The notes below the pieces were generated by a model. It was not told the DNA's origin. It saw only the letters and a list, made by a program, of their open reading frames with translations, and searched no databases. Made by a program: the position numbers and the translations under genes. This document shows, one piece after another, positions 30,958-51,826 of a DNA stretch of 64,000 nucleotides; the stretch's first letter is position 1, and every line of letters starts with the position of its first letter. This stretch comes from Gillisella vitis (lineage in GTDB: Bacteria; Pseudomonadota; Alphaproteobacteria; Rhizobiales; Rhizobiaceae), in NCBI RefSeq assembly GCF_021559775.1, contig NZ_CP056047.1:1674001-1738000 (forward strand), written 5' to 3'.

Positions 30958-31980
30958 TTACGCTCCAGCAATAGAAGCTTGAATGAAGGCAACGTATTTG
31001 TCCTTGAGACCCGGTTGCAGCCGCTCGGCCATCAGCATGGCGATCTGGAATTGGGTGAAACTATCGGTTTCTTCCAGCGCCATTTCCGCCAGACCCGTGA
31101 CGCCTTCGGCATAAAGTTCAGGAGAATCAGCCACCTGCTGGATAAAGCTGCCCAGAAACCGGTTGACCGTGAATTTGCCCAGACGCTGGCGCTCATCGAT
31201 GGAAAGCGGCGAGCCGACCCGGTTGATCAGCACGAAAACATCGAGAAATAGCAGAAGCATTTCATAATGAACCGCACTCTCCGGCAGTCCGGCTTCAAGC
31301 AACATAACCTTGCGTTCCGCATCGATCTGCGCCTTTTCAGCCCATTTTGCGGCATTGTAACGATAGCGGATCGACGGATCATGCGCCATTTTTCCAGTCG
31401 CAAACAGGGATAGTGCAATGGCCCAATCGCATGTCGCTGCCTTGGTCGGATGGGAGCGCAGAAACAGATCCATTGTCGCAAGCCAGACTTCGCGGCGCAG
31501 GATGGAATAGAAACCGCCATTGTTGGTCGGGCTGTTCTGCAGATAGGCGAGCATTCTTTCGCCGGGGTCATACTCTTCCAGGGCAAAGGCCTGAACCGAA
31601 CCAGTTTCGGATCGCTGGAGGAAGCTTTCGGTTACCGGCAGCACGCCAACGTAATCGAAGGGCAGATCATCGAGATCGAAAGGTGCCTGATCCGCTTCCG
31701 CAAGGATCTCGTCATCATCGCCCATCGGCATGATGAAGGGCGTGGAGGCTGCCTCGACAGCGTTGAACATATTGGCGAAGGCCGTTTGTGCCTCGCTTGC
31801 CACATAGGTCAATCGGGGAGAAAGGTCTTGCAAATAGGCTTTTTTGGCGGCATCGCCGGAATTGTCGCTGACCACCAGCAGGGCGTCCCGCGCCTCGCAA
31901 AAAGCAAGCGCACTGTTGATAGCAGCGCGCGAACCGTCGAGCGGGCGATGGCTGGGCATGCAGATAGTCAGTTCGGCCAT
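30958..31980 (-). CDS. Family 2-like glycosyltransferase
   Basis: GT-A fold glycosyltransferase, 340 residues, probably cytoplasmic. Strand-1 motif LTICMPSHRPLDGSRAAINSA and VVSDNSGD give the nucleotide-sugar site. MPMGDDDEIL carries the DXD-like metal motif. About residues 190-340 form a helical tail of unknown role. ATG 31980 has CGGAG seven bases upstream. It is transcribed away from the GT41 pair at 32.4 kb; donor and acceptor are unknown. Confidence 0.8.
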   Translation of the reverse strand: MAELTICMPSHRPLDGSRAAINSALAFCEARDALLVVSDNSGDAAKKAYLQDLSPRLTYVASEAQTAFANMFNAVEAASTPFIMPMGDDDEILAEADQAPFDLDDLPFDYVGVLPVTESFLQRSETGSVQAFALEEYDPGERMLAYLQNSPTNNGGFYSILRREVWLATMDLFLRSHPTKAATCDWAIALSLFATGKMAHDPSIRYRYNAAKWAEKAQIDAERKVMLLEAGLPESAVHYEMLLLFLDVFVLINRVGSPLSIDERQRLGKFTVNRFLGSFIQQVADSPELYAEGVTGLAEMALEETDSFTQFQIAMLMAERLQPGLKDKYVAFIQASIAGA

Positions 31981-32387
31981 AGAAACACTCCGGAAAAATG
32001 CGGGCCCCATGACAAGCCCCCATTGCAGAAAATAGCATTCAGGCGGGATCAGCTCTCAGACAATTTTCCCAGCTCAGACTCGAAATGGGTAATTATACAA
32101 TATCCGCAAAGCTTTGCCGCATTTGGTTCGCCTTTGAAGAACAGCGATATCCTACCGTCAAACGTTGCGGCACCTGTGTCAACCAGCGGATGAAGCCGAC
32201 CGCAAGCCTCACGCAAGGCTCAACGGAGTCAAATGGTCGATCACCAAACAATGCCGCGAATTATTCGGTTGATAAAATCGCAAGCTCTGCTCCAGCGACG
32301 ATTGTTTAAGAACCAATGCAGATAATATTGGCAGAGACTCACAACAGACACGCCGGGCAAAAGCCAAGACAGCAGGAGACCTTCATC
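31981..32387. other. Intergenic region between divergent glycosyltransferase genes
   Basis: This 407-base stretch shows no convincing gene on either strand. Short frames in it lack ribosome sites. It must carry the promoters of the leftward glycosyltransferase and of the rightward small-protein/GT41 pair. Confidence 0.45.
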
Positions 32388-32735
32388 ATGTCCGCCACCG
32401 CCGTTACCGACCGAGACACCGTCGCCATGAAGCTGGGTGGATTCTCTGATGACGACAAGGCCTTCCTGGCCCTGATGCTGGAAAACCCCAAGCAGGACGA
32501 GACCTTTGCCGAAGGCCTGTTCGCCTATCTGGAACAATCCGCCGGTCAACGCTTCCTCAACTCCCTGAAGCTGGAGCGCTGTGGCGAATGGCTTGGCAAT
32601 AGCTGCCCGGCCCGGATGCAGATCCGCTTGATGGAAATTGCCAGGTCCAGCCAGCATGGCGCCTACCTAGCCTTTCGCCAGGGGCTGACACGCTCCGGCG
32701 GCCTGGAGCGTGCCTATCCGAAATCAGCGCTGTGA
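32388..32735 (+). CDS. Small protein of unknown function coupled to a GT41 gene
   Basis: 115 residues, acidic at the start (GFSDDDKAFLALMLENPKQDETF) and basic toward the end, mostly predicted helical, with no signal peptide or membrane segment. I do not recognise a family. ATG 32388 is preceded by AGGAG. Its stop overlaps the next gene's GTG start in GTGA, so the two are translated together; it may be a substrate, adaptor or regulator of the glycosyltransferase. That role is inference from coupling only. Confidence 0.75.
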   Translation: MSATAVTDRDTVAMKLGGFSDDDKAFLALMLENPKQDETFAEGLFAYLEQSAGQRFLNSLKLERCGEWLGNSCPARMQIRLMEIARSSQHGAYLAFRQGLTRSGGLERAYPKSAL

Positions 32736-34513
32736 GCGTGGGTCCGTCCCCGGCCTTCATCCAGGCTTTGCAGGCCTATAAGCAGGGCGATCTGCGCGCC
32801 TGCCTCGACCGCCTGCATCCGCTTTTGAAAAAACGTCCACCGGACGCCAATATGCTGCTGGTGGCGGCGCAATGCCATGCAAAGCTGGAGGAAAAACTCC
32901 AGGCCGCCGAGCTTTACGCCCGGGTGGCGGATGTGCAGCCGCAAAATCGCCGGATGTTTCTCCTGATGGCCGCGCGTTTGTATATGCAGATTGATCAGGG
33001 GGAGCAGGCGCTTTCCCTGATCCGCAAAGTGCCAGAATCCCAAAATCTCGAATCCCAAAATCTCGAATCCCAACACCTCGCATCGCTCGACCCGGAAGAG
33101 CAGAGAACCTATCGGCGGCTGCTGCGAGGACAATTGTGCCTCGAGGAAATCGAAGCCAGCGACCACGCGCTGCTGGCCGCGATGCGAGAGGGCACCAATC
33201 CGGCATTTTTCAACATCGACGATCCCTACCAGCACATGCTGTGGTGTGACGACGAGGCGATCAATGGCCGACAAACCCGGATGGCCAGCGGAAAGCCGTT
33301 TACGGAGCAATCGCGCCAGGCACGCCGCAGCCTACCCCATCGCTTCGGAGAAAAAATCCGGGTCGGCTACCTTTCGTCGGATTTTTCCGACCAGCATCCA
33401 ACCATGCGGCTGTTGCAAAGTGTTCTGCTCGGTCACGACGCCGCCCGCTTCGAGATCCACCTGTTCTGTCACACGCCAGAGGATATCAGAGGGCTGGATC
33501 GTGGCCTGCGGCAGACCTACCCCAATCTTCACGACATCCTGCGCATGGACGATGGTACGGCACGCGATTTCATCCGCAGCTTTGACCTTGATATTCTGGT
33601 CGATCTCAAAGGCCATACCAAAGATGTCCGCGCCGATCTGATCAATAGTGGCCTTGCCCGCTTGCAGGTCGCCTATCTCGGTTTTCCCGGCTCCGCCTAT
33701 GGGATCGATTGCGATTATGTCATCTCCGACCTGATCGTTACGCCGGACTCATCCAAACCCCATTATCACGAGAGGCTGTGTCGATTGCCGGAAACCTATC
33801 AGGCAAACGACAACCGCTATCGCCCGCACCCACCGGCCACATCCCGCTCCCTGCTCGATCTGCCGGAAGATGCCTTCGTGCTGGCCTCCTTCAATATGGT
33901 TCGCAAGATATCTCCGCAAACCGCGCGTCTCTGGGCAAGGATGCTGGACGCCATTCCCTCATCTATTCTGTGGGTTCTCTGCGCCGGGCGCGAACAGCGC
34001 GACCGCCTGACCGCATTCATGACCGGGTGCGGAATCGAACGTTCACGCCTTTATTTCACTGGCGCCGAAAGTTACGCGCCGCATATTGCCCGAATGCAGG
34101 CGGCTGATCTCGGTCTCGATACCTATCCCTATAACGGCCACACCACGACCTCGGACAAGCTATGGGCGGGCCTGCCGGTCATCACCTTCAAGGGCAACAA
34201 TTTCGCCTCAAGGGTGTCAGAAAGCCTGCTGACCGCGCTCGGCGTTCGGCAACTGGTGGCGGAGACGCCAGACGACATGGTGCGCCTAGCCGCAGACCTG
34301 GCGCAGGACCGGCCCCGGCTTGCCGCACTCAGGCAGACGATTGCTAACAACCGGCTGCGCGCACCGCTCTTCGACACGCGACGGTTCACCCGCCATCTGG
34401 AACATGCTTTCGAACTGATGGTAGAACGGGAAAAGGCTGGCTTGGAACCAGATCACATCGATGTACCAGCCCTGCCGATACGACAGGGCTCGTTCAAGCA
34501 GGATATGGACTGA
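32732..34513 (+). CDS. SPINDLY/O-GlcNAc-transferase-like glycosyltransferase (GT41)
   Basis: 593 residues. N-terminal TPR-like helices (about 1-130: ALQAYKQGDLRACLDRLHPL, AAQCHAKLEEKLQAAELYARVADVQP) are followed by the bipartite catalytic region of Glyco_transf_41 (IRVGYLSSDFSDQHPTMRLL near 205, YLGFPGSAYGIDCDYVISD near 310, FNMVRKISPQTARLWARML near 385, and LDTYPYNGHTTTSDKLWAGLPV near 465). Such enzymes transfer sugars to Ser/Thr of cytoplasmic proteins; flagellin or others are possible targets. The GTG start overlaps the previous stop. A 15-bp triplicate repeat lies between the TPR and catalytic parts. Confidence 0.88.
   Translation: MSVGPSPAFIQALQAYKQGDLRACLDRLHPLLKKRPPDANMLLVAAQCHAKLEEKLQAAELYARVADVQPQNRRMFLLMAARLYMQIDQGEQALSLIRKVPESQNLESQNLESQHLASLDPEEQRTYRRLLRGQLCLEEIEASDHALLAAMREGTNPAFFNIDDPYQHMLWCDDEAINGRQTRMASGKPFTEQSRQARRSLPHRFGEKIRVGYLSSDFSDQHPTMRLLQSVLLGHDAARFEIHLFCHTPEDIRGLDRGLRQTYPNLHDILRMDDGTARDFIRSFDLDILVDLKGHTKDVRADLINSGLARLQVAYLGFPGSAYGIDCDYVISDLIVTPDSSKPHYHERLCRLPETYQANDNRYRPHPPATSRSLLDLPEDAFVLASFNMVRKISPQTARLWARMLDAIPSSILWVLCAGREQRDRLTAFMTGCGIERSRLYFTGAESYAPHIARMQAADLGLDTYPYNGHTTTSDKLWAGLPVITFKGNNFASRVSESLLTALGVRQLVAETPDDMVRLAADLAQDRPRLAALRQTIANNRLRAPLFDTRRFTRHLEHAFELMVEREKAGLEPDHIDVPALPIRQGSFKQDMD
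33035..33079 (+). repeat. Three tandem 15-bp repeats inside the GT41 gene
   Basis: GAATCCCAAAATCTC occurs at 33035-33049 and 33050-33064, and a two-mismatch copy (GAATCCCAACACCTC) at 33065-33079. They encode ESQNL, ESQNL and ESQHL in the linker after the TPR-like part. Copy number may vary by slippage without a frameshift. Confidence 0.9.
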
Positions 34514-34535: not shown

Positions 34536-35321
34536 TCAGTTGGGGCGCTGCTCTACCACCGCAATGATCGGCCCAAGCGGATAGGACCGGTCGATCCGGC
34601 CACCCATAGGCTCGGCAAGGCTTGAAATCGTCCCGTCCAGATAAAGCGCATTGGCCGCGCCCAACCGGTCGCGAAAGAACGCGGCCATATCGTAGAAACG
34701 CACAGGGTCTTTGCTCAAAACAAACACCACCTGTCCGCTGGCGTCGATACCGACACCATTGCGGATTTTCAAACTGTCGCTGGTGGGGAGAAACTTCGGG
34801 TGCAGAACACCATCGATGACCAGCATCGGGCCGGATTGAGTGGCGAAATCCGCTTCAATATTCTGGGTTTCGAATTGCCCGGTCTCAAGCACACCAGCAT
34901 GACCGTCTTTAAGAAAAAACACGCCATTCGGCTTCAGGTAAAAATTGCCCCAGCCATCGGCGGTTTCGGTTGGCTTGCGCGTCACGCCATAGTCTACGAA
35001 CAGGCCAACGGGACTGAGATCGGAGTGATACATACCGCCATTGACGGCAAATGTGAGGATCAGTCTTTGCTGCCAAAGCTGGCTTCGCAATGCCTCGAAC
35101 CCACCATAGACATCTCCGTCAGCATTGCGGTTGAAGATGCGAATTGTGCGCGTGGCGGGATCAAATCGACAGACACGATAAGAAAAGCCGTTTTCCGTCT
35201 GGTCACGACAATTCTGTTCTTCTGCCTCAGCACGCTCTGGAGAAATAACAAGCGGGGACAGGATCGCAAAAAGCCAAACGACTATTTTCAAACGGAGTGC
35301 GTTTTCCGAGCAAAATCTCAA
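34536..35321 (-). CDS. Exported phosphodiester glycosidase-family (DUF2233) protein
   Basis: 261 residues with an N-terminal hydrophobic signal (LKIVVWLFAILSPLVISPERAEAE), so probably periplasmic. The body fits the NAGPA/YigE DUF2233 family: LTFAVNGGMYHSDLSPVGLFVD, YLKPNGVFFLKDGHAGV, RNGVGIDASGQVVFVLS and ALYLDGTISSLAEP. Relatives act on GlcNAc phosphodiesters or have no known substrate. The start is uncertain: TTG 35321 or TTG 35291, since no in-frame ATG gives the signal peptide. It is convergent with the GT41 gene. Confidence 0.8.
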   Translation of the reverse strand: MRFCSENALRLKIVVWLFAILSPLVISPERAEAEEQNCRDQTENGFSYRVCRFDPATRTIRIFNRNADGDVYGGFEALRSQLWQQRLILTFAVNGGMYHSDLSPVGLFVDYGVTRKPTETADGWGNFYLKPNGVFFLKDGHAGVLETGQFETQNIEADFATQSGPMLVIDGVLHPKFLPTSDSLKIRNGVGIDASGQVVFVLSKDPVRFYDMAAFFRDRLGAANALYLDGTISSLAEPMGGRIDRSYPLGPIIAVVEQRPN

Positions 35322-38336: not shown

Positions 38337-39275
38337 TCAGGCGGCCACCGCTGTGTCGACACAGCCGCGATTTCCCAGCACGCAACGCACGTAATCGGCA
38401 ACAGCCTTGACCGGCGGCGAGGCATCTTCACACAAGGCAAGACCGACCTCGTAACTGCCAAGATCCGGCAATCCATCACGCTCGGTCAGTTCCACCATAT
38501 CCTCCTGCAACAGGAAGCGGGCAAGCGGCGCGACGGCGATATCGGCACGGATCGCCGCATATTGCCCGACGTGGTGACCGCAGAAATAGGCGATGCGGAA
38601 TTCCTTGCCCCGGCGGGTCAATTCGGTCATGGCGCGCTTGCGCCACACACAGCTCTCATCCCAGACAGACAGCGGCAGCGGCGTTTTCAGATGGGCCTGA
38701 CCGTGTTTTTTTCCAGCCCAGACCAGCTTTTCGCTCATCACTGTCATGGTGGGATCGGCGGCGATGCCGTTTAAGAAATTGAACAGTGTTACGTCCAGCC
38801 GCTTCTCATTCACCGCCTTGCGCAGCTCCACAGAACCGGCAATCGTCACCTCGATGGCCAGATGCGGCCATGTGCGCGCCAGATGAGTGAGAATACCGGG
38901 CAGGACCAGTTCGCCGATATCATCAGGTGATCCCAGCCGCACCACACCATTCATCTCGGGCGCCAAAAACCGTGCCACCGCCTCATTGTTCAGGGCGAGG
39001 ATGCGCTTGGCATAGCTGAGCAGCAAAGCCCCATGCGGCGTCAACGTGACGGAACGGGCATCACGGCGAAACAGCGAGACGCCCAGTTGATCCTCCAGCT
39101 TCTTGATCTGCATCGATACCGCCGAGGGGGTGCGAAACACCATGTCTGCGGCAGCCGTAAAACTGCCGACCTCGGAAATCGCCACGAAGGTGCGCAGCAC
39201 GTCATTATCCAGAAGCGGCAAACTGGCCGCTGCCAGAACGGTGGAAGGCATGGAGGGAGACTGGGAAAGGGTCAT
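38337..39275 (-). CDS. LysR-family transcriptional regulator
   Basis: 312 residues. The N-terminal winged helix reads LLDNDVLRTFVAISEVGSFTAAADMVFRTPSAVSMQIKKLEDQLGVSLFRRDARSVTLT, classic for LysR; a periplasmic-binding-like effector domain follows (residues about 100-300). ATG 39275 is the first with a plausible N-terminus. It is co-directional with and 99 bases upstream of the P450 gene, so the two may be linked, though LysR genes are more often divergent from their targets. Confidence 0.92.
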   Translation of the reverse strand: MTLSQSPSMPSTVLAAASLPLLDNDVLRTFVAISEVGSFTAAADMVFRTPSAVSMQIKKLEDQLGVSLFRRDARSVTLTPHGALLLSYAKRILALNNEAVARFLAPEMNGVVRLGSPDDIGELVLPGILTHLARTWPHLAIEVTIAGSVELRKAVNEKRLDVTLFNFLNGIAADPTMTVMSEKLVWAGKKHGQAHLKTPLPLSVWDESCVWRKRAMTELTRRGKEFRIAYFCGHHVGQYAAIRADIAVAPLARFLLQEDMVELTERDGLPDLGSYEVGLALCEDASPPVKAVADYVRCVLGNRGCVDTAVAA

Positions 39276-39391
39276 TGGACAACCATCAATTTTTCTCAAC
39301 ATAAAGATCATATCGTTTCGTTTGATTGAATGTCAATTCCACCTGACACTGTTTGCAACAAAGCCGTTCGGCATCAGGAGGAGTGAAAAGC

Positions 39392-39625
39392 ATGGTCTTC
39401 GAAACAACACCCCGCCGCGTTCCACCCATGTTGCGGCTCTGGCTGGCCTTTCATCGCTGGCGGGAGAGACGCCATCTACGCCAGGCACGTGAAAAGGCGA
39501 TGGCTCATCTTAATGGCTTGCCTGAATACCTGCGGGCGGATGTGGGCATCGTCGTGCCGGAACGGCCGGACAGCAAACCGATCACAATATGCGATGCGAT
39601 AGATCACAAACATTCGCTTTATTGA
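39392..39625 (+). CDS. DUF1127-like small basic protein
   Basis: 77 residues, Arg-rich. The segment FHRWRERRHLRQAREKAMAHLNGLPEYLRADVGI resembles the DUF1127 helix (W-x2-R-R, leucine-rich, then L-x-D-I/V-G). AGGAGGAG precedes ATG 39392. Members are often RNA- or stress-related in rhizobia; the role here is unknown. It is divergent from the LysR gene and followed by a second member. Confidence 0.65.
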   Translation: MVFETTPRRVPPMLRLWLAFHRWRERRHLRQAREKAMAHLNGLPEYLRADVGIVVPERPDSKPITICDAIDHKHSLY

Positions 39626-39704
39626 TCAATGAATACGGCAGATGATGTCTCTGCCGCCTCAGGACCAGAAAGTTCTTAGGCGAGATCAACGAAAGGAACT
39701 TTCC

Positions 39705-39926
39705 ATGGCCTACATTTCTCATTCCAGCCCTTCGCGGCTGTTTACCAGCAGTATTATCCTCGCCGAGTCGGCTTTTCATGCCATTGCCACGTGGTTCAGT
39801 CAGCTAGAATCCTGGCGGCAACACCGCGCCATGGAAAAGGCGCTGGCAGAAGCCCCTTTCGATATGCGCAAGGATCTTGGCTGGCCTGCACACGACACGT
39901 GGCAGACCCGTCGCGACATGGTTTAA
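39705..39926 (+). CDS. DUF1127-like small protein, second copy
   Basis: 73 residues. The C-terminal half SWRQHRAMEKALAEAPFDMRKDLGWPA has the DUF1127-type pattern (arginine cluster, then L/M-x-D-L-G-W). The N-terminal half is hydrophobic and mildly amphipathic. GAAAGGAAC precedes ATG 39705. It follows the first member by 79 bases on the same strand and may share its transcript. Confidence 0.65.
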   Translation: MAYISHSSPSRLFTSSIILAESAFHAIATWFSQLESWRQHRAMEKALAEAPFDMRKDLGWPAHDTWQTRRDMV

Positions 39927-40179
39927 ACGGCTTAAAACAGCTGTTTCATGCCTTGTTTCCGAGGGCCGTTAATCAAAATATCGTGTTTTTTCAATCGGCT
40001 GATGCTTTCGCATGCTCGTCATGCCCAATGATACTCTGCTGATGAAACACCCACAAATGGTCCGGCAATAATGATGTCAAATTGTTGTCGTCGGTTTCTA
40101 TCGTGCTATTGTCGTTTTTGAGCTATTGGCGGAATTAAAAACTGTCAATTCTAGCAGATCTCCTCAGCACGGTGGCATC

Positions 40180-41193
40180 ATGAGCAAAACGCCTGTTAAA
40201 AAACGCAATATCGTCTTTTTTCTTGTCCCGAATTTCACGCTATTGCCGTTTGCGGGCGCCATCGAAACATTGCGCATTGCCAACAGGATGCTGGGCTATG
40301 CGGCTTATGAGTGGCGGCTCTGTTCAGTCGACGGCAACAAGGTGTCGTCTTCGTCGGGCATCAGCATCGAGGTCGATTCGTCGCTTGCCGATGAGCGCCG
40401 TTTCCTGGCCGGTGAAAACCGGCCCAATATGGCGATTGTCTGTTCCGGCGTGTTTGTCGAGGAGTTCAACAACAAATCCGTCAACGCCTGGCTGCGGGAA
40501 GCCTATAACCGCAACGTCGCGGTCGGCAGCCTTTGCACGGGCGCCCACGTGCTGGCCCAGGCCGGACTTTTGAACGGCAAGCGCTGCGCGATCCACTGGG
40601 AAAACCTGCCGGGCTTTTCGGAAGCCTTTCCCCAGGCCGAGGTCTATGCCGATCTCTATGAAGTCGACAGCAATCTCTATACCTGCGCGGGCGGTACCGC
40701 TTCGCTCGACATGATGCTCAACCTGATCGGTCAGGATTTTGGCGAGGGCCTCGTCAACCGGGTCTGTGAACAACATCTGACCGACCGGGTCCGGGCTGCC
40801 GGAGACCGCCAGCGCCTGCCGCTGCGCGCCCGCCTTGGCGTGCAGAACAACAAGGTCTTGCAGATCATCGAATTGATGGAGGCAAGTCTGGCCGAGCCCT
40901 TGTCCCTGCTTGATATCGCCGACAAGGTGGATCTGTCACGCCGCCAGATCGAACGGCTGTTCCGCCAGGAAATGGGCCGCTCACCGGCGCGCTATTATCT
41001 GGAAATCCGCCTTGACCGTGCCCGGCATCTGCTGGTGCAATCCTCGATGCCAGTGGTGGAAGTCGCCGTCGCCTGCGGCTTTGTCTCCGCCTCGCATTTT
41101 TCCAAATGCTACCGCGAATTCTACAATCGCTCGCCCCAGCAGGAACGCGCCGAACGCAAACTGGCAACGGCAAAAGCGGCGGTTGCCGCATAA
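40180..41193 (+). CDS. GlxA-family transcriptional regulator (DJ-1/PfpI plus AraC)
   Basis: 337 residues. An N-terminal DJ-1/PfpI-like domain (about 10-190) has the nucleophile-elbow sequence VGSLCTGAHVLAQAGLL, but is usually a sensor rather than an enzyme in this family. A C-terminal AraC domain follows with two helix-turn-helices (LLDIADKVDLSRRQIERLFRQEMG and VVEVAVACGFVSASHFSKCYREFYN). Such regulators often govern arginine, betaine or carnitine metabolism. ATG 40180 is chosen; the earlier in-frame start lacks a ribosome site. Confidence 0.9.
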   Translation: MSKTPVKKRNIVFFLVPNFTLLPFAGAIETLRIANRMLGYAAYEWRLCSVDGNKVSSSSGISIEVDSSLADERRFLAGENRPNMAIVCSGVFVEEFNNKSVNAWLREAYNRNVAVGSLCTGAHVLAQAGLLNGKRCAIHWENLPGFSEAFPQAEVYADLYEVDSNLYTCAGGTASLDMMLNLIGQDFGEGLVNRVCEQHLTDRVRAAGDRQRLPLRARLGVQNNKVLQIIELMEASLAEPLSLLDIADKVDLSRRQIERLFRQEMGRSPARYYLEIRLDRARHLLVQSSMPVVEVAVACGFVSASHFSKCYREFYNRSPQQERAERKLATAKAAVAA

Positions 41194-41501: not shown

Positions 41502-42698
41502 ATGACGATCGGCCTTGATGATTTGTCGCTTGAGCGACTGATGAAGGAGCGTGTGTGGACCTTCGGTAAAGCTGGCGCCGAACAGGTTTTTGCATCGCAG
41601 ATATCCTTCGAGAGCGGCGGTTGGCTGCGCGGATATTCCCATACCAATGAAAACTCCTGGCGCGTGAAAGGCGGGGCGGTCGAGTTTCTGAGCCAGAACG
41701 CTGCTGTCACCACGCGATTCGATACCGTACGGTCTGTCGACGGACGCATCGAAATGGAGGGACAGTTCCGTCTGCCGGGAGAGCGTGGCGTTCATCTCTT
41801 GACGGAATGCGGCGAGGCACGGAAGCCGCAGAACAGAACCGCTCTTATCGTGCCCATTCACGACGCCTATTTCATCTATGGTATCAACCTGCTGTTTCAG
41901 AGCATCGGCGCCGACTACGACATCATTTTCGTCTTTTCCACCGATGCCGATCGCCTGCAGTTCAGAGAGATGCATCAGGCGTCCCCTTACCTGAACTACT
42001 CGTCCATCGTGCTGTCGGATTATTTCTCAGGCAGTGCGCTGTCGGTCGTGGCTGAGGGTAGAACCTGGCCGACGGTCAAGAAATTCCTGGCGCTTTCTCT
42101 CGCCCATAAGCTTTACGACTATCTCCTGTGCGTCGATGCCGAGACCTTCATTCTCAATAAAACGGGCTGGACCGAGGCCGCCGCAAGCGTTGTTTCCGCA
42201 GCACGCTGGTACGGCGGTACTCTGACTGCAAACCACTCGGCCGAAAGGCAGATCATGCACGCCTCGTCCATAAAGCTGGCACCGGCGGTCGATCATGAAA
42301 AAATTCAGGCCATTTCCGGCAATTGGGGCATCTATACCTGGTGGTGGGATATTCCGGTCTATTCGGCCAAGAGCATCCCGGGCTTTCTGGAGTGGATTGG
42401 CTGGGACGCCAGCCTCCAATTTGTGGAAAGGCTCGTCCACAGCGTATTCGACCATATCACCTACCAGTTCTACATGGCTCTTTACGGTGGTTTCTCGTTC
42501 ACGATGGTCGAAGGCATCGCCCATGCGATGGAATTCTGCAACGCCGGGATTGTCTCCAAGGTGCATCAACAGATCCATCCAATGAGATGGACGAATGCCT
42601 TTGCCTACTCGCAGGACCCGAACTTTTTCCGAGAGAACAACTATCTTGCCGTCTATCACATCGACAGGAAGAGCTTTCCTCAGTTCAACCCCGGCTAG
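41502..42698 (+). CDS. Putative glycosyltransferase heading a five-gene cassette
   Basis: 398 residues, no signal peptide. An N-terminal beta-rich part (about 1-105: ERVWTFGKAGAEQVFASQI, GWLRGYSHTNENSWRVKG) is followed by a GT-A-like core: TALIVPIHDAYFIYGINLLFQ (nucleotide strand), DYDIIFVFSTDAD, YDYLLCVDAETFI (DXE in place of DXD), then an aromatic-rich acceptor region (WGIYTWWWDIPVYS). I do not recognise a named family. AGGAG precedes ATG 41502. Downstream enzymes suggest it may transfer the product they activate. Confidence 0.72.
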   Translation: MTIGLDDLSLERLMKERVWTFGKAGAEQVFASQISFESGGWLRGYSHTNENSWRVKGGAVEFLSQNAAVTTRFDTVRSVDGRIEMEGQFRLPGERGVHLLTECGEARKPQNRTALIVPIHDAYFIYGINLLFQSIGADYDIIFVFSTDADRLQFREMHQASPYLNYSSIVLSDYFSGSALSVVAEGRTWPTVKKFLALSLAHKLYDYLLCVDAETFILNKTGWTEAAASVVSAARWYGGTLTANHSAERQIMHASSIKLAPAVDHEKIQAISGNWGIYTWWWDIPVYSAKSIPGFLEWIGWDASLQFVERLVHSVFDHITYQFYMALYGGFSFTMVEGIAHAMEFCNAGIVSKVHQQIHPMRWTNAFAYSQDPNFFRENNYLAVYHIDRKSFPQFNPG

Positions 42699-42761
42699 TT
42701 TCCGGGGAATTTGCAGTGGCCGGTGAAGCACCTATTTCGCAACGTTAGAATGGAAAGAGCG

Positions 42762-43382
42762 ATGAAAATTCTCGCGCACAGGGGCTGGTGGCTGGAACCT
42801 GTCGAAAAAAACAGTGAAACGGCTTTCAGGCGCGCCTTTGAAAATGGATTCGGGGTCGAGACGGACACGCGCGACCAAAATGGCGTGCTGAAAATCGCGC
42901 ATGACATGCCCATCGGCGACCAAGTGATGGATCTCGACTATTTTCTGGATCTGCACAAGAGCTATGCCGGATCAGGCACGATTGCCATGAACATCAAGGC
43001 AGACGGCCTGCACAAGGCGCTCCGCGCCTCGTTGGAGGGTGCCGGGATAACCGATCTGTTCTGCTTCGATATGGCTGTTCCAGATGCCATCGGCTATCTC
43101 AACAACGGCTTTATAACCTATACCCGCCATTCCGAACTCGAACCGCTGCCTCCCTTTTATGACAAGGCTCAAGGCGTGTGGTTGGATGCCTTCTATTCCG
43201 ACTGGATCACTCCTGATGTCATCCAGAAGCATCTCGATGCCGGCAAGAAGGTGGCGCTCGTCTCTCCAGAACTGCACGGGCGTGATCATACCGCCGCCTG
43301 GGATGTTTGGGGTGATCTGACAGGTGACGACATCTCAATCTGCACCGACTTGCCGCACCTCGCCGCCGAGAAATGGGGATAA
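42762..43382 (+). CDS. GDPD-like phosphodiesterase
   Basis: 206 residues, shorter than the usual 240-250. TIM-barrel phosphodiesterase of the glycerophosphodiester phosphodiesterase family: catalytic histidines in LAHRGWW and KIAHDMP, metal ligands in VETDTRDQNG. The usual PEN motif reads KNSETAFRRAFENGFG. No signal peptide, so cytoplasmic, unlike periplasmic GlpQ. ATG 42762 follows GGAAAGAG. In this cassette it may process a phosphodiester intermediate rather than salvage lipids; that is inference. Confidence 0.78.
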   Translation: MKILAHRGWWLEPVEKNSETAFRRAFENGFGVETDTRDQNGVLKIAHDMPIGDQVMDLDYFLDLHKSYAGSGTIAMNIKADGLHKALRASLEGAGITDLFCFDMAVPDAIGYLNNGFITYTRHSELEPLPPFYDKAQGVWLDAFYSDWITPDVIQKHLDAGKKVALVSPELHGRDHTAAWDVWGDLTGDDISICTDLPHLAAEKWG

Positions 43383-43412
43383 GCCAGCCATGAACCAGAC
43401 GGACAGGACATT

Positions 43413-44042
43413 ATGATCAAGGCAGTGCTTTTCGACATGGACGGCGTTCTGATCGATGCCAAGGAATGGCATTACGAGACGCTGAATGACGCGCTGGCGC
43501 TTCTCGGGCTCAATATCAGCCGCACCGAACATCTCGCCGTCTATGACGGCCTGCCAACACGCAAAAAACTGGAAATGCTGACCAAGACGCGGGGATTGCC
43601 GCCAAGGCTGCACGATTTCCTCAACACGCTCAAACAGAAGATGACCTATCAGGTCATCGTCGAAAAATGCCAACCGGTTTTTCATCACGAATACGCCCTC
43701 GCGCGCCTGAAGCGGGAGGGCAAGCATATCGTGGTCTGCTCAAACTCCGTCAGGTCGAGCGTCGAGGCGATGATGCGCCAGGCTGACCTGTTGAAATACC
43801 TGGATTTCTTTCTATCCAATCAGGATGTCGGCAAGGCGAAGCCCGATCCCGAAATCTACACGACGGCAATCGACCGGCTGCAATTGCAGCCAGAGGAATG
43901 CCTGATCCTGGAAGATAACGATCACGGCATACAGGCCGCCCGCTCCTCAGGCGCCCATGTGCTGGTGGTGGGATCGACCAACGACGTCACCTATGAGCGT
44001 ATCATGAACGAAATCACCAAGATCGAATCGGCCCTCACATGA
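43413..44042 (+). CDS. HAD-superfamily hydrolase
   Basis: 209 residues. Motif I FDMDGVLID carries the nucleophile and general-acid aspartates; motif II is VVCSNS; motif III lysine is in GKAKPDPEIY; motif IV is LEDNDHG. A helical C1 cap as in beta-phosphoglucomutase/phosphoglycolate phosphatases follows motif I. Such enzymes in activation clusters remove a phosphate before or after nucleotidyl transfer. Its stop overlaps the next ATG by four bases. Confidence 0.85.
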   Translation: MIKAVLFDMDGVLIDAKEWHYETLNDALALLGLNISRTEHLAVYDGLPTRKKLEMLTKTRGLPPRLHDFLNTLKQKMTYQVIVEKCQPVFHHEYALARLKREGKHIVVCSNSVRSSVEAMMRQADLLKYLDFFLSNQDVGKAKPDPEIYTTAIDRLQLQPEECLILEDNDHGIQAARSSGAHVLVVGSTNDVTYERIMNEITKIESALT

Positions 44043-45523
44043 GATATCTTATCCCCATCGCGTCGAAGGATGATCTTTTCCCAAAGGATGAGTTTCATTT
44101 CCCCAAGCCTCTGATCGAAATCGACGGTTCGCCGATGATCTCGCTCGTCGTCAACAGTATCCGCAACCGCGATGCCTCCGCGAAGTTCATCTTTATCGTT
44201 CTTAATCAGGATGCGCTTGAATACAGTCTCGATTCGATTTTGAAATTGCTGGCTGGCGAAAGCACCGTTGTCATCAAACTGAACAATCCGACCATGGGCG
44301 CTGTGTGCTCGGCGCTGATGGCCGTCGATCATATTGTGGACGACGATCCTCTGGTGATCTGCAATGGCGACCAGATCATCGACGCGGATCTGGCAGGCAT
44401 TGCACGAGATTTTATGCGCTCGGGAGCCGATGCCGGTGTCGTGACCTTCAATTCCGTACACCCCCGCTGGTCCTATATCCGTGAGGATCAGTCTGGATAT
44501 GTCATAGAAACGGCGGAAAAGCGCGTTCTGAGCCGCAAGGCGATTGCTGGATATTATTATTTTAGAAGCGGCAGCCTATTTGTGGAATTTGCCCAGAATT
44601 ATTTGCTGAAAGCCGACCCGTTTGGTGGAAAATACTATCTTTCCCCGGTTCTGAACGAGGTTATTCTCGCCGGTGGCAAGATCGTGCAGCACGAGATTCC
44701 ATCCGACAGCTATATCTCGTTCTATTCGCCCAAGCGCATCGAATTCTATCAGAACGAGATCCGGGACAAGGTTGCCGCGATGACCAAGCCCGCCCGTCAG
44801 GTTCAGGTCGTCATTCCGATGGCGGGCCTCGGCAGTCGGTTTGCGCAAGTCGGTTACCTCAAACCAAAGCCATTCATCGACGTGAAAGGCAAGACGATGA
44901 TCGAGCGCGTCATGGACAATCTGCGCCTCGATCATGCGCGCTTCGTCCTGATCGCCCGACAAGAACATCTGGATGCGGAACCCGACGTCGTCAGTGGCTT
45001 GAAGGCCCATGGCGATCTCGCATTTTCGCCGATCAACTTCGTAACCGAGGGTGCGGCTTGCACCGTCTTGACGGCGCGGACACATCTTGATCCCGATGCC
45101 CCATTATTGATTGCCAATTGCGACCAGATCGTCGATTTCGATTGCGCCGATTACATTCAAGATGCACTGGAGCGCGATCTGGATGGCTCAATTCTCTGCT
45201 TCAAGGACAAGGATCGAGACCCGAAATGGTCGTTCGCTCATGTGAACGATGATGGCCTGGTCGATGAGGTGAAAGAAAAGGTGGCGATTTCCGACAACGC
45301 GACCGTTGGCATCTATTATTTCAGACGCGCCCGCGATTTCATCGATGCCGCGACCGATATGATCGCCCACAACGATCGCTCCAACAACGAGTTCTATGTT
45401 TGCCCGGTCTACAACTACCTGATCAAGCAGGGAGCCAGGGTCGGCGTCTATCATGTCGCTCCCGACGCCATGCACGGTATAGGCACGCCTCCCGATCTGG
45501 AGGCCTATCTTAGGCTGATTTGA
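44039..45523 (+). CDS. Tandem double nucleotidyltransferase
   Basis: 494 residues made of two homologous sugar-nucleotidyltransferase-like domains. Domain A (1-250) starts YLIPIASKDDLFP and lacks the GxGxR loop, but keeps PKPLIEIDG and CNGDQIID. Domain B (about 258-494) has the complete VVIPMAGLGSRF and KPKPFIDVKG, and NCDQIVD. Both share a W-S-Y/F block then EK-V-S/I...A-x-G-Y-Y-F-R. Only B looks able to bind nucleotide normally. It overlaps the HAD gene by four bases and is coupled to a third homologue. Confidence 0.85.
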   Translation: MRYLIPIASKDDLFPKDEFHFPKPLIEIDGSPMISLVVNSIRNRDASAKFIFIVLNQDALEYSLDSILKLLAGESTVVIKLNNPTMGAVCSALMAVDHIVDDDPLVICNGDQIIDADLAGIARDFMRSGADAGVVTFNSVHPRWSYIREDQSGYVIETAEKRVLSRKAIAGYYYFRSGSLFVEFAQNYLLKADPFGGKYYLSPVLNEVILAGGKIVQHEIPSDSYISFYSPKRIEFYQNEIRDKVAAMTKPARQVQVVIPMAGLGSRFAQVGYLKPKPFIDVKGKTMIERVMDNLRLDHARFVLIARQEHLDAEPDVVSGLKAHGDLAFSPINFVTEGAACTVLTARTHLDPDAPLLIANCDQIVDFDCADYIQDALERDLDGSILCFKDKDRDPKWSFAHVNDDGLVDEVKEKVAISDNATVGIYYFRRARDFIDAATDMIAHNDRSNNEFYVCPVYNYLIKQGARVGVYHVAPDAMHGIGTPPDLEAYLRLI

Positions 45524-45528
45524 TAAGC

Positions 45529-46224
45529 ATGAAATGTATCGTACCACTTGCCGGGCCTGATTTGTGGACCCCGAAATATGGCTTTAGACCGCTGGTGGAT
45601 ATCAGCGGAAAACCGCTGATCGACGCTGCCTTGGGTGACAGGGCGTGGTCGAACCGGCTTCGGCCAGAGGATTACATCTTCGTCATCCGCGAGGTTCCAA
45701 ACCTCGCGGAGCTTGTTGAATATCTGCGCCTGAAATGGCCCGGCTGCCGCATCGTGACACTCTCCGACCTGACCGGAGGCGCTTTGTTCTCTGTGCTCGC
45801 AGCAATGGCGCTCGTCACGCCAGACGAGCCCATCATCATCGATCTGGCCGACATCCTGTTCACGAGCGGACCAGACGACCCGGAGACACTGTTTTCGACG
45901 GAAGGATGCGGCGCAGTCGTGCCGGTCTTTGCCTCAAGCGAAAACTGCTACAGCTATTTGAAGATGACCGACGGCGTGGTGGTTGAAGCGAGGGAAAAAC
46001 AGGTGATCTCGGAAAACGCCTCCGCAGGCGTATACATGTTCCGAAACATCCAGATATTCCTCAGTGCAGCCGTTCATATTATCAACAACCGCCAGACCAT
46101 GAGCTATAAAGGCGTGCTTTTCATCTGCCCCATGGTCAACGGCGTCATCGCTGACGGCCACACCGTGCTGGCGCCCACTATTGAAAACTGCCAGCCGGTG
46201 GGAAAGATTTTTCACGAACGATAG
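45529..46224 (+). CDS. Single nucleotidyltransferase-like protein, divergent paralogue
   Basis: 231 residues homologous to each half of the previous protein: CIVPLAGPDLWTPKYGFRPLVDISGKPL at the start, then YSYLKMTDG, EAREKQVISENASAGVYMFR and ICPMVNGVIADG. The GxGxR loop is lost, and the usual metal aspartate pair reads DLADIL. It may be a non-catalytic partner of the double protein. Starts six bases after that gene's stop at ATG 45529. Confidence 0.78.
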   Translation: MKCIVPLAGPDLWTPKYGFRPLVDISGKPLIDAALGDRAWSNRLRPEDYIFVIREVPNLAELVEYLRLKWPGCRIVTLSDLTGGALFSVLAAMALVTPDEPIIIDLADILFTSGPDDPETLFSTEGCGAVVPVFASSENCYSYLKMTDGVVVEAREKQVISENASAGVYMFRNIQIFLSAAVHIINNRQTMSYKGVLFICPMVNGVIADGHTVLAPTIENCQPVGKIFHER

Positions 46225-47190: not shown

Positions 47191-47253
47191 GTCGATGATT
47201 AGAGTTCATTGCTTGGCTGGTTTCTCAGAAACAGGCTATTTACGAGCCGATAA

Positions 47254-50200
47254 TCAGCTGCACCCACTCGTGCTGCCACACGTATCGCACTTTTCACACG
47301 TCCCATTCCGTACCATCGTAAAGTTCTGGCACTCGGAGCACATGTTGCCGGTATAGCCTTGGGCGATGGAGCGCATGCGGCGGGCGGCTTCGACTTTCTT
47401 GGCTTCGGCCTTGGCGGCTTCGGCTTCGTCGGTGGCGGCGTCGGAGAACAAGGTTTCCGTGACCATGTCTTCCACCAGTTCGGCGGCCCGTTCCTCGTAA
47501 TCGCGCTTGAAGGACACGACTTCGGAGGTGGAAATGGCTGTCGTCACTTCCAGCTTGCGGGCGGCATTGCCGGAAAACGACGTGACATTCGCGGATGCCT
47601 TGGCCGGAGTGCCGGTTACGGCCCCACGGGGTTCGGCGGTTCCGGCCTGGCTGCTGGAGACCAGGGTCGGCTTGTAGCCACGGGTCAAGCCCTTGGAGAC
47701 CACGTCGGCCTTGCCTTCCTTCACGCCGCGGCCAAGTGCCGTGGTGGAGAAGTCGGACGTGTCGACATGAGCCAGATCGTTGCGGCCGAGGTAGGAGATC
47801 GCCAGTTCGCGGAACACATAGTCGAGGATCGACGTGGCGTTCTTGATGGCGTCGTTGCCGGTTACCATGCCCGCCGGTTCGAACTTGGTGAAGGTGAAGG
47901 CATCGACATATTCTTCCAGCGGCACGCCATATTGCAGGCCGAGCGATACCGAAATCGCGAAGTTGTTGATGAAGGCGCGCAGAGCCGAGCCTTCCTTGTT
48001 CATGTCAAGGAAGATTTCGCCGAGACGGCCATCGTCATATTCGCCGGTGCGCAGGAAGATGGTGTGACCACCGATCTTGGCCTTCTGGGTATAGCCCTTG
48101 CGGCGGGTCGGCAGCTTTTCCTGTTCGCGGACGATCCGCTCGACAATGCGCTCAACGATCCGTTCGGTAATGGTCACGGCCTGGGCAGCCTGCGGCTGGG
48201 CCAACAGTTCCTCAACCGCGTCCTCATCATCCTCATCCTCGATCAGCGAGGAATTCAGTGGCTGGCTGAGCTTGGAGCCATCGCGGTACAGCGCATTGGC
48301 CTTCAGCGCCAGTTTCCAGGACAGCATGTAAGCTGCGCCGCAATCTTCCACCGTTGCCTCGTTTGGCATGTTGATGGTCTTGGAAATCGCGCCGGAGATG
48401 AACGGCTGGGCTGCTGCCATCATGCGGATATGGCTTTCGACAGACAGATACCGCTTGCCGATCTTGCCGCAAGGATTGGCGCAATCGAAGACCGCCAGAT
48501 GTTCCTTCTTCAGGAACGGCGCGCCTTCCAGCGTCATCGCCCCGCAGACATGGATATTGGCAGCCTCGATATCCTTCTTGGCAAAGCCCAGATGCTCCAG
48601 CAAGTTGAAGCTCATGTCGGTCAGCTGTTCAGCACTGACGCCAAGCGTTTCCTTCAGGAAATCAGCGCCCAAGGTCCATTGGTTAAAGACGAACTTGATG
48701 TCAAAGGCAGCGCCCAGGGCCGCATTGACAGCCTCGATCTTCTCGTCGGTAAAGCCCTTGGCCTTCAACGAACCGGGGTTGACGCCCGGCGCCTGGTTGA
48801 GATTGCCATGGCCGACCGCATAGGCTTCGATCTCGGCAAGCTGGCTTTCCGTGTAGCCAAGCGTGCGCAGGGCTTCGGGAACGGCGCGGTTGATGATTTT
48901 GAAATAGCCGCCACCGGCCAGCTTCTTGAACTTCACCAACGCGAAATCCGGCTCAATGCCTGTCGTGTCGCAATCCATAACCAGGCCGATCGTGCCGGTC
49001 GGGGCAACGACGGAGACCTGAGCATTGCGGTAGCCATGCTGTTCGCCCAGTTCCAGCGCCTTGTCCCAGGCCGCCTTGGCATGGGCAATCAGCGCCGGAT
49101 CGGAGCATTCAGCATGGACCAGCGGCACGGGATCGACGGCAAGACCCTCATAGCCTTCAGACAGGCCATGGGCGGCGCGGCGATGGTTGCGGATGACGCG
49201 CAGCATGTTGTCGCGGTTTGGTGCATAGCCCGGGAACGGACCAAGCTCGGAGGCGATTTCAGCAGACGTAGCATAGGAAACGCCGGTCATGATGGCGCTC
49301 AGCGCACCGCAGATGGCGCGGCCTTCAGCCGAGTCATAGGGAATGCCAGTCGACATCAGCAGGCCACCAATATTGGCATAGCCGAGGCCGAGCGTGCGGT
49401 ATTCGTAGGACAGTTCGGCAATCTGGCGGGACGGGAACTGCGCCATCATCACGGAGACTTCGAGCACGACAGTCCAGAGGCGAACGGCGTGTTCGTAATC
49501 GGCAATGTCGATCTTCTTTGTATCGGCATCCTTGAACTGCAACAGGTTCAGCGAGGCCAGATTGCAGGCGGTGTCGTCCAGGAACATATATTCCGAGCAC
49601 GGATTGGAAGCGCGGATCGGGCCAGCCGCCGGGCAGGTGTGCCAGTCGTTCATGGTGGTGTTGAAATGCAGGCCCGGATCGGCGGAGGCCCAGGCAGCGT
49701 AGGAAATCTTTTCCCAGAGATCGCGGGCCTTCAGGGTCTTCATCACCCGGCCATCGCGGCGGGCGGTCAGGTTCCAGTTGCCATCTTCTTCGACAGCCCG
49801 CAGGAAGTCATCCCGCAGCGAAACGGAATTGTTGGAATTCTGGCCCGAGACGGTCAGATAGGCTTCCGAATCCCAATCCGTATCATAGGTCTTGAATTCG
49901 AGATCCTTATAGCCCTGCTGGGCGAACTGGATGACGCGCTTGACGTAGTTTTCCGGCACCATATCCTTCTTGGCAGCGCGGATTTCGCGCTTCAGGGCCG
50001 GGTTTTCATTGGGGTCGAAGCAGGCGTCGTTATCGGCTGAGCAATTGACGCAGGCCTTCATGATCGCCTTCAGATGCTTGGCGACGATCTTGGAGCCGGT
50101 GACGAGAGCAGCAACCTTCTGCTCTTCTTTCACCTTCCAGTCGATGTAGTTCTCAATATCAGGATGGTCGATGTCGACAACCACCATCTTGGCGGCGCGG

Positions 50201-51024
50201 CGCGTGGTGCCGCCAGACTTGATGGCACCAGCGGCGCGGTCACCGATCTTCAGGAAGCTCATCAGGCCGGACGATTTACCGCCGCCCGACAGCTTTTCGC
50301 CCTCGCCGCGCAGATGGGAGAAGTTGGAGCCGGTGCCGGAACCGTATTTGAACAGGCGCGCTTCACGCACCCACAGATCCATGATGCCGCCTTCGTTGAC
50401 CAGATCGTCTTCAACCGACTGGATGAAGCAGGCATGCGGCTGCGGATGCTCATAGGCCGACTTGGACTTGGTGAGCTTGCCGGTGAAAGGATCGATATAG
50501 AAATGGCCCTGGCCGGGACCATCGATGCCATAGGCCCAATGCAGGCCAGTGTTGAACCATTGCGGGGAATTCGGCGCGACGCGCTGGGTGGCGAGCATAT
50601 AGGCCAGCTCGTCGCGGAAGGCGAGTACGTCTTCTTCTGTAGTGAAATATTTGCCCTTCCAGCCCCAATAGGCCCAGGTGCCGGCCAGACGCGAAAAGAC
50701 CTGACGCGCATCGGTCTCCGAACCGTAGCGCTCGTCTTCAGGCAGATCCTTCATGGCCTTTTCATCGGCAACCGACCGCCACAGGAAAGACGGAACATCG
50801 TTTTCCTCGACCTTTTTCAAGATCTTCGGCACGCCAGCCTTGCGGAAATATTTCTGGGCCAGAATATCGGCCGCCACCTGGCTGAACTGCGCGGGCACAT
50901 CGATATCGGCCAGCCGGAAGACGACAGAGCCATCCGGGTTCTTGATTTCGCTTACCGCCTTGCGGAATTCAATTTCCGCATAGGGCGACTGGCCGGGCTT
51001 GGTGAAACGGCGTTCGATGCGCAT
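47254..51024 (-). CDS. nrdJ: Class II (B12-dependent) ribonucleotide reductase NrdJ
   Basis: Makes deoxyribonucleotides with adenosylcobalamin as radical source, so does not need oxygen. The product is 1256 residues, normal for the long alphaproteobacterial form. PHACFIQSV carries the first redox cysteine, [21 protein letters not shown] the radical cysteine and catalytic NPCSE loop; a TSCPD domain lies near residues 1000-1100, and the C-terminal CSECQNF...CEKCDTCG is a zinc/redox tail. [18 protein letters not shown] is a short repeat near residue 970. ATG 51024 is chosen for [10 protein letters not shown] candidate NrdR box lies upstream; cobQ is elsewhere in this window. Confidence 0.97.
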
Positions 51025-51826
51025 CTGGCTAGTCCTCGTTGGTCCAAGCACCCGGAAAAGGGCGCAGAATAGGTTTCACGGCACCACGTTCAAGCGGCTT
51101 GCCGTTGGTTCGCTCTCTTCGGAGCGAGGCCGATCATAATGATGGTCCGCTCTTTATTTTGCGCCAGCCTTATCCGCTAGATACTAAATATAGTATCAAC
51201 AGCGTTTTCATGCCAGAACAAATGGCCGCAGCGCGCCAGAAAAATTCACAAGGATATCCGTGCGGTCAAAGCGTGGAAGCCATGACCGTTTCAAACCTGA
51301 TGATGTTCGCTGATTTGAACCGACCTCGTAGACATCTCGGTTCAGCCGCCGCCGCAACAATCAATTCATTAACCCTGCCTGCGGGCAAGCGCAAGAGCTG
51401 GTCTGTATCGAAAATATGAACCCTATATGTTGTGGTCAGCATCTGTGGAAAACGGGGAAAGAGGCTAGCCTAGAGAATTCATAGGCTTGGCGGAAAAGCT
51501 TCATGATTAACGCTGGGTGAAGGTTTTTTTATCCACCGTCACATCGTGGCACGCAAGCAAGACGACAGAGGCCTGCCGCCGCATGTCTGCCTCTATCCCG
51601 AAACGAATCGGAGGTTTTTTGTGCCCAAGAACGCCCTGACCGTGCTCGCCTCCATCAGGAAACCCTTTAATACACAGGGAATATGTCTTGCTAATTACCA
51701 AACGAACTAAAGGGATATTAATGTTTGTGGACAACTATATCGGGACCAGGGTCTGGAATGATGTCCATGCCTAGATATGCTGCGCCAGTCGCCATGAGAG
51801 CGCCGGGCTGCGCTTAAGGTTTGGTC
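51025..51826. other. nrdJ/MCP divergent intergenic region
   Basis: This 802-base stretch holds the nrdJ promoter with the NrdR-like box, a small TCGCTC/GAGCGA inverted repeat at 51110-51127, and the MCP promoter. Three sites differ by one base from a DnaA box (51444-51452, 51529-51537, 51726-51734) but are too scattered to claim. No protein or RNA gene is convincing. Confidence 0.5.
51181..51196. promoter_or_regulatory. Candidate NrdR box upstream of nrdJ
   Basis: ATACTAAATATAGTAT (ATACTATATTTAGTAT on the nrdJ strand) matches 13 of 16 positions of the NrdR consensus acaCwAtATaTwGtgt and is a near-perfect palindrome. It lies 156 bases upstream of the nrdJ start. NrdR boxes usually come in pairs; I see no clear second copy, which lowers confidence. 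Confidence 0.55.

Follow-up and report, generated by a model that had tools for sequence, protein, structure and literature searches.

A four-gene module linking a GDPD-fold enzyme to HAD and nucleotidyltransferase proteins, with a possible role in making activated surface-glycan precursors

Introduction

Described systems with which the locus reported here can be compared include the glycerophosphodiester phosphodiesterases (GDPDs) of the GlpQ/UgpQ type (PF03009), pathways of the GDP-D-glycero-manno-heptose type, which pair a HAD enzyme with an NTP transferase, and CDP-polyol pathways such as TarIJ and that of pneumococcal CDP-2-glycerol, in which a polyol-forming reductase stands beside a nucleotidyltransferase. 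A GDPD-fold enzyme, AvrBs2, is also described as forming a sugar phosphodiester and UMP from UDP-galactose (PMC12807533). Here we analyzed a stretch of 64,000 nucleotides of Gillisella vitis, a soil bacterium associated with grapevine (contig NZ_CP056047.1, positions 1,674,001 to 1,738,000; the window), in which a first-pass annotation had singled out five genes at 41502-46224 as a cassette that may build and transfer an activated phospho-polyol or sugar. We propose, with a probability of about 0.5, that the last four of these genes (42762-46224) form a horizontally mobile module whose cytosolic enzymes supply surface-glycan synthesis with a nucleotide-activated building block.

Results

A tightly packed gene block with a divergent GDPD-fold enzyme

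All five open reading frames (ORFs) are intact and, as the first-pass annotation had stated, co-directional (+ strand) and tightly packed. The intervals, from the first gene to the fifth, are 63 bases (the largest gap), 30 bases, a 4-base overlap and then either a 4-base overlap or, if the ATG at 45529 is taken as the start of the last gene in place of a TTG, a 5-base gap. The four-gene unit consists of a GDPD-fold phosphodiesterase-like enzyme of 206 aa (42762-43382, from the ATG, the ORF list having placed the start at a TTG farther upstream, 42711), a HAD enzyme (43413-44042), a fused nucleotidyltransferase of 494 aa comprising the domains NT1 and NT2 (44039-45523), and a nucleotidyltransferase-like protein, NT3 (45529-46224 from the ATG, or 45520-46224 from the TTG). 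Directly upstream lies the gene for a 398-aa orphan protein (41502-42698). Pfam families were matched only by the HAD and the double nucleotidyltransferase genes, the other three having no family at all, and among the matches listed the curated NCBIfam cut-offs were passed solely by general HAD models. None of the five genes matched a dehydrogenase or reductase family, Pfam recognized no kinase or isomerase family in the block, and no clear signal peptide or membrane helix was found in the cassette proteins by a crude hydropathy scan.

The GDPD-like protein of the window had no PF03009 match and was missed by the Pfam and NCBIfam models, and its profile matched the GDPD structure 1o1z (E 6.5e-6) over the first 50 residues only. 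An AlphaFold2 (AF2) model built on 47 sequences (pLDDT 96.3) nevertheless allowed comparison of the whole chain: Foldseek matched it to 3no3 (E 7.9e-9), and VIA-align superposed 193 residues on this solved GDPD with a Z of 21.2 and a root-mean-square deviation (rmsd) of 2.5. Across the chains titled as GDPDs, VIA-align scores ranged from Z 21.2 (3no3) down to 14.8 (3mz2), with rmsd values of 2.3-3.7; the top two entries, 7ww4 and 7wwc (Z 21.3), are titled multidomain glucanase and not GDPD. The model thus confidently predicts a GDPD-fold TIM barrel over the entire length of the protein, and the claim that the block encodes a GDPD-like enzyme with no obvious signal peptide held.

Residues H6, R7, E33, D35 and H47, corresponding to the HR, ExD and H residues that we take to be the catalytic residues of GDPDs, were invariant in 55 aligned rows drawn from 92 cassette sequences, and the patterns HR(G/R) and HD were found in 90/92 and 89/92, respectively. 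In all 92 sequences, however, the acidic residue of the ExK motif, which presumably binds metal in GDPDs, is replaced by Asn (NxK). Two further signatures, in whose patterns E may be replaced by D and the final R by H, appear private to these proteins: RxS(E/D)xE (92/92) and VSP(E/D)Lxx(R/H) (86/92). Searching the window's own genome with PF03009 recovered five other loci and neither of its two cassette GDPDs. NxK and the two private signatures each occurred in 0/5 of these Pfam-recognized GDPDs and in 2/2 GDPDs of a sister cassette described below. The five Pfam GDPDs suggest that this genome is already equipped for the ordinary breakdown of glycerophosphodiesters.

Linkage of the cassette genes across phyla

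Scanning 84,980 species genomes with the GDPD alignment yielded 390 encoded relatives, of which the best 80 by GDPD similarity were kept. Together with 13 plasmid records chosen from 27 plasmid hits, and the window itself, these gave 94 loci (designated by L numbers; L028, L029 and the window come from the same or nearly the same species), in which each gene was searched for with its own profile. The first-pass annotation had suggested looking for linkage in relatives, and the genes proved to be linked: HAD accompanied the GDPD in 89 of the 94 loci, in 85 of them within 300 bases and with a median of 9 bases between the profile matches, and NT1 and NT2 were present in 84 and 85 loci, respectively. 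All four families occurred together in 80/94. The HAD partner was absent from five loci, namely L043, L055 and L101, and L017 and L021, which hold the sister cassette. In the 80 loci in which all four families scored above 120 bits, the pairwise distances of the four families correlated with one another (r = 0.61-0.80, as compared with a maximum of 0.11 in 500 permutations).

We also examined an unselected sample of 385 genomes of the class, the window's own included, in which we counted GDPDs above 250 bits as cassette-type, took hits of about 19-32 bits to be other GDPDs, and excluded six hits of 83-92 bits that were partial or belonged to the sister clade. This sample contained six full-length cassette-type GDPDs in five genomes, two of them in the window's genome and four in four others, and all six (6/6) had nucleotidyltransferase genes within ~2 kb. 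Linkage in the cassette is therefore far above chance, and chance adjacency was rejected on the strength of both the 94 loci and the 385 genomes.

The 80 relatives kept (best of 390) carried 14 phylum-level labels, the carriers including Pseudomonadota, Bacteroidota, Cyanobacteriota, Verrucomicrobiota, Myxococcota, Campylobacterota, Spirochaetota, Bacillota and Planctomycetota. A DNA search of E. coli genomes with one Scandinavium GDPD-HAD query gave no match, nor did a protein search of phages. The sister cassette was found on an E. coli IncR plasmid (L017:6022-14984, by annotation and Pfam) and in Azospirillum brasilense (L021:5205-12589, by annotation), and comprises a double nucleotidyltransferase, GtrA, GT2, GDPD, a PRK-type kinase, HAD and a class II aldolase; a literature search that touched on it gave no description of it.

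One canonical nucleotidyltransferase domain, and the alternation of NT3 with a cupin

The HAD protein matched PF13419 (E 2e-32) and passed the cut-off of TIGR01509, and scored below the equivalog cut-offs for beta-phosphoglucomutase (88.3 against 189.4 bits for TIGR01990, and 115.6 against 153.35 bits for TIGR02009). Alignments placed 3kbb and beta-phosphoglucomutases as its nearest solved structures, and every column of the nucleophile loop DMDGVL, which conforms to DxDGV, was conserved to 95% or better among 88 proteins. These features point to an enzyme of the beta-phosphoglucomutase/carbohydrate phosphatase kind, either a mutase or a phosphatase.

The first-pass annotation had read the remaining genes as a triplet of nucleotidyltransferases. 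Three domains of this type are indeed present, encoded by two genes, and the GxGxR motif is kept in one of them only. The fused protein matched PF00483 in two stretches (E 9.7e-18): NT1, at about residues 1-235, is without GxGxR, and NT2, at about residues 255-494, has the canonical GxGxR...PKP arrangement, in the form of GLGSRF and PKPF in the window. Across the loci, NT2 carried GxG[STA]R in 73/85 and PKP in 81/85 cases; NT1 carried GxGxR in 0/84 and PKP in 44/84, and NT3 carried neither (0/25 for each). The nearest solved structure to NT2 was 4evw (E 7.8e-28), and the NT3 profile matched the same structure with an E of 5e-9. Because GxGxR is kept in NT2 alone, NT2 is the sole plausible nucleotidyltransferase domain, with NT1 and NT3 being plausibly altered copies, and we rejected the idea of three active nucleotidyltransferases.

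NT3 and a small cupin of ~110 aa excluded one another: among the 94 loci, 25 had NT3 only, 59 had the cupin only, none had both, and 10 had neither, several of these 10 ending at a contig boundary. By gene form, 25 loci had the fused NT1+NT2 with NT3 and without cupin, two (L051 and L088) had the fusion with a cupin and without NT3, 53 had separate NT1 and NT2 genes with a cupin, four were partial with a cupin, and 10 were partial with neither. The fusion accompanied by NT3 represents one mainly alphaproteobacterial branch, with separate nucleotidyltransferases and a cupin found elsewhere. The alternation is not merely a matter of fusion state, because L051 and L088 combine fused nucleotidyltransferases with a cupin. 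Among the 59 cupins, 40 were encoded between NT1 and NT2, 15 elsewhere, and four in loci with one nucleotidyltransferase missing; in the 94 loci every cupin was within 3 kb of the core genes. HxH and E, which we take to be the usual metal motif of cupins, were kept in 33/33 aligned rows, and comparison with PDB sequences returned chance-level relatives only. In the sample of 385 genomes, the cupin profile gave four strong matches (>150 bits), every one of them in a cassette of the four carrier genomes besides that of the window, and six weak matches (21-24 bits) elsewhere, with none in the window's genome.

The first gene lies outside the conserved unit

The protein encoded by the first gene had been called an unusual glycosyltransferase. 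It had zero matches to Pfam and NCBIfam families, a chance-level match only to PDB sequences, and no likeness to WavE by profile comparison (probability 0.2), and its AF2 model, built on five similar sequences, was too poor for a fold search (pLDDT 38.5). The assignment as a glycosyltransferase was thus not borne out and stands as a guess. Outside the window the gene was found in L028-L031 and in genomes G015 and G033, that is, in a few Allorhizobium/Agrobacterium genomes only. In L028-L031 and L109-L112 it lies directly 5' of the gene for the GDPD; L111 and L112 seem to come from the genomes already represented by L029 and L031. In the 385 genomes of the class it occurred in the window's own genome, with one marginal partial match besides, and no match was found in 72,556 plasmids. 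Because this gene is restricted to so few genomes, we rejected the five genes as a natural unit: the proposed five-gene order is real in close relatives, and the conserved unit is the four genes that follow.

The cassette has probably moved

The host genome is 6.0 Mb in size, and the window's GDPD shares 97% identity with its counterpart in Agrobacterium (Allorhizobium) vitis CG118. A second, complete four-gene unit (GDPD, HAD, NT1+NT2 and NT3) is present in the same genome at ~C1:1205394-1208911 (L108:5395-8912), with a GDPD 44% identical to that of the window. Immediately 5' of this second copy is a gene for a 709-aa protein without a Pfam family, and GT2, HAD and possible sulfotransferase genes are near.

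A GDPD relative was found in 6/60 related genomes searched, the window's own included. The five-gene order was kept in 4/4 fetched relatives with a window-type GDPD (L109-L112); the fifth relative, G010, whose match coordinates are those of the plasmid record L027, has the four-gene unit. In A. taibaishanense, the AraC-type regulator and ribonucleotide reductase genes that flank the window's cassette enclose other genes (L126, with 74.8% and 89.3% DNA identity to window positions 39031-41177 and 47252-51097, respectively), and the window-type cassette is on another contig. A fixed chromosomal place was rejected by this arrangement; the cassette has probably moved, because the flanks enclose other DNA in A. 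taibaishanense and the cassette lies elsewhere. The same species holds a second cassette (L127). In addition, the GDPD tree mixes phyla, with Asticcacaulis (Caulobacteraceae) placed among Rhizobiaceae with a local support of 92 (99 for the 13 rows around it), a pattern suggestive of transfer though not proof of it.

Genomic context

Many copies of the unit are found among genes for surface polysaccharides. WavE occurred within 6 kb of the GDPD in 26/94 loci, and in 38 within the fetched stretches of up to 10 kb on each side; comparison of WavE with PDB sequences returned chance-level relatives only. Neighbor families, the WavE group of 38 loci among them, came from a greedy choice of ORFs followed by graph clustering, with a single representative giving each its name. 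They also included ABC ATPases (23 loci), ABC permeases (11), sugar-nucleotide SDRs (29) and GT4 (22), besides a mixed GT41/TPR/GT2 cluster (29); five loci show no neighbors in this clustering, a long ORF having hidden the GDPD. dTDP-rhamnose genes adjoin some Bacteroidota copies, an O-antigen ligase gene is near the copy on the Scandinavium plasmid, and flippase and ligase genes are found in Ruegeria. ABC transporter and WavE genes are present at the locus on a conjugative P. aeruginosa plasmid.

On that plasmid (L015:7529-16683), the unit lies inside a polysaccharide-type cluster with GMC oxidoreductase and WavE genes; an IS30-type transposase gene lies just 5', and several Pseudomonas contigs are similar in order. 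In Asticcacaulis (L032:8790-9971), a gene of the N-acylglucosamine 2-epimerase family lies directly 5' of the unit, a possible hint at the sugar involved.

In the window, Pfam identified a GT41 (TPR-type) gene at 32732-34513, a weak GT2 match at 30958-32010 and a gene of the NAGPA phosphodiester glycosidase type at 34536-35321, all three clustered 6-10 kb 5' of the cassette, beyond P450, LysR and AraC genes. GT41/TPR genes also lie ~1 kb 5' of the unit in R. rhizoryzae (L019, by Pfam) and 5' of it in L037 (by clustering). Two small ORFs occupy window positions 39353-39926; their ends are, we assume, DUF1127-like, and for the first of them Pfam gave no match at E 0.001.

Discussion

For the unit at 42762-46224 we infer a scheme, every reaction included, from gene content, linkage, co-divergence, the GDPD fold, the gain and loss of motifs and the mutual exclusion of NT3 and cupin. 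According to this scheme, the HAD enzyme would prepare a phosphorylated sugar or alcohol, by isomerizing or trimming it, and NT2 would activate the product to a donor linked to a nucleoside diphosphate (NDP). The substrate of the GDPD would be a phosphodiester arising within the pathway, either the NDP-linked compound itself or a derivative of it, rather than membrane-derived glycerophosphodiesters, and the enzyme would either cleave this phosphodiester or transfer its phosphoryl-sugar part. NT1 and NT3 may serve as catalytically altered partners of nucleotidyltransferase fold, and NT3 would occupy the position that the small cupin has in other loci. A transferase would then use the product: WavE in many loci, and in the window perhaps GT41 or the orphan protein encoded at 41502-42698. 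Of the earlier proposal of an activated intermediate, what stands is a co-inherited gene set plausibly making an activated glycan precursor; a glycerol-type polyol as its product found no support.

Several observations weigh against this reading. The 80 relatives kept, being the best by GDPD similarity, are a non-random sample of linkage, and the correlation of distances could partly reflect shared host descent. In L043, L055 and L101 the GDPD scores as cassette-type and 3.7 kb or more of sequence follow it, yet there is no HAD. The G+C content of the cassette (~0.53-0.56) does not set it apart from all of its surroundings (0.51-0.60). A Pfam scan of 32 other ORFs of the window revealed no polysaccharide exporter, flippase or polymerase, and the nearest glycan-type genes (GT41 and GT2) are 7-10 kb off, past unrelated genes. 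By annotation, R. rosettiformans (L027) and R. tumorigenes (L026) likewise have no recognizable glycan genes within 9 kb on either side. Since glycan-assembly genes were not recognized near the window, L026 and L027 copies, a product other than a polysaccharide unit is possible. The product may be a polyol or another compound.

The alternative that survives best, although we consider it doubtful, is that the GDPD is an ordinary hydrolase that splits glycerophosphodiesters to free glycerol-3-phosphate or another phosphomonoester, from which NT2 would make a CDP-glycerol-like donor for phosphoglycerol decoration. This is near to the idea of the first-pass annotation and agrees with the retention of the GDPD fold and of the H, R, E, D and H residues, but it has to contend with the five Pfam GDPDs already in the genome, with the Asn in place of the presumed metal-binding acid of ExK, and with the private signature. 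Glycerol-3-phosphate is, moreover, present in every cell. A substrate made within the pathway is thus more likely, because the release of glycerol-3-phosphate would add nothing new and five other GDPDs are present.

Rather unlikely is that the cassette makes, by analogy to AvrBs2 and agrocinopine synthase, a small sugar phosphodiester that is secreted or stored. The AvrBs2 precedent (PMC12807533) and the several Rhizobiaceae cassettes without nearby polysaccharide-assembly genes would fit this possibility, which many of the loci outside Rhizobiaceae, sitting as they do among polysaccharide genes, speak against. We give slightly less credence still to the idea that the activated product is destined for proteins, which transferases such as those of the GT41 type would glycosylate, and not for a polysaccharide. 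The GT41/TPR genes 5' of the unit in L019 and L037 and 8 kb 5' of it in the window are consistent with such a role, as is the mention of flagellin in the first-pass annotation, but in the window unrelated genes intervene, and the GT41/TPR neighbor cluster is mixed with GT2. It is improbable that the GDPD and HAD serve as housecleaners, breaking down nucleotide-linked compounds that the nucleotidyltransferases make wrongly or in excess: both belong by fold to hydrolase families, but HAD is the most constant partner (89/94), and one would expect enzymes with such a role to go missing more frequently. Least probable of all is a decoration of the phosphocholine/phosphoethanolamine type fed by glycerophosphocholine breakdown, as is reportedly proposed for the Pasteurella pcg genes, where a GDPD and an NTP transferase are said to co-occur, given that no kinase family was recognized in the block and that the carriers include cyanobacteria and Bacteroidota, which generally lack phosphatidylcholine.

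A more specific form of the proposed surface-glycan module, which we regard as unlikely though worth stating, would make the GDPD-fold protein a nucleotide-sugar-dependent phosphodiester synthase in a four-protein pathway leading to a new class of activated surface-glycan donors, spread over at least 14 phylum-level groups and with NT3 and the cupin interchangeable. If the proposed module is real, genes labeled in the plasmid records examined as hypothetical protein or phosphodiesterase, HAD family phosphatase and glycosyltransferase family 2 would belong to one pathway, and the unit could be named across many capsule and O-antigen loci, pointing to an unrecognized glycan component. It would also provide a second biological setting that ties the GDPD fold to nucleotide-sugar chemistry, and the alternation of NT3 and cupin offers a clean, testable case of two unrelated folds in one place.

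The first-pass annotation knew of no named pathway with this gene set, and we likewise found no characterized pathway or description of it in searches of open-access papers, some of which were poorly aimed; the subscription literature, mostly outside their reach, may hold a published account. The cassette is apparently undescribed and kin to nucleotide-sugar pathways. It shares with the GlpQ/UgpQ-type GDPDs the TIM-barrel fold of the whole chain and the HR...ExD...H residues, and differs from them in lacking any Pfam or NCBIfam match to its GDPD, in the Asn of ExK, in its private signatures, in the lack of an obvious signal peptide in the window's copy, and in its tie to nucleotidyltransferases. 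With AvrBs2 and agrocinopine synthase, compared here by description, it appears to have in common a GDPD-derived fold and, for AvrBs2, nucleotide-sugar chemistry; those enzymes act in plant cells (PMC12807533), whereas that of the cassette is a minimal barrel of 206 aa with nucleotidyltransferase and HAD partners. The sister cassette has a GDPD of the same signature clade, a double nucleotidyltransferase and HAD, together with a kinase, an aldolase and other further enzymes of its own. Finally, as in the pathways that pair HAD with an NTP transferase, the cassette places HAD and PF00483 side by side, often among surface-glycan genes, and to this pairing it adds a GDPD, a second nucleotidyltransferase domain devoid of the signature, and either a cupin or NT3.

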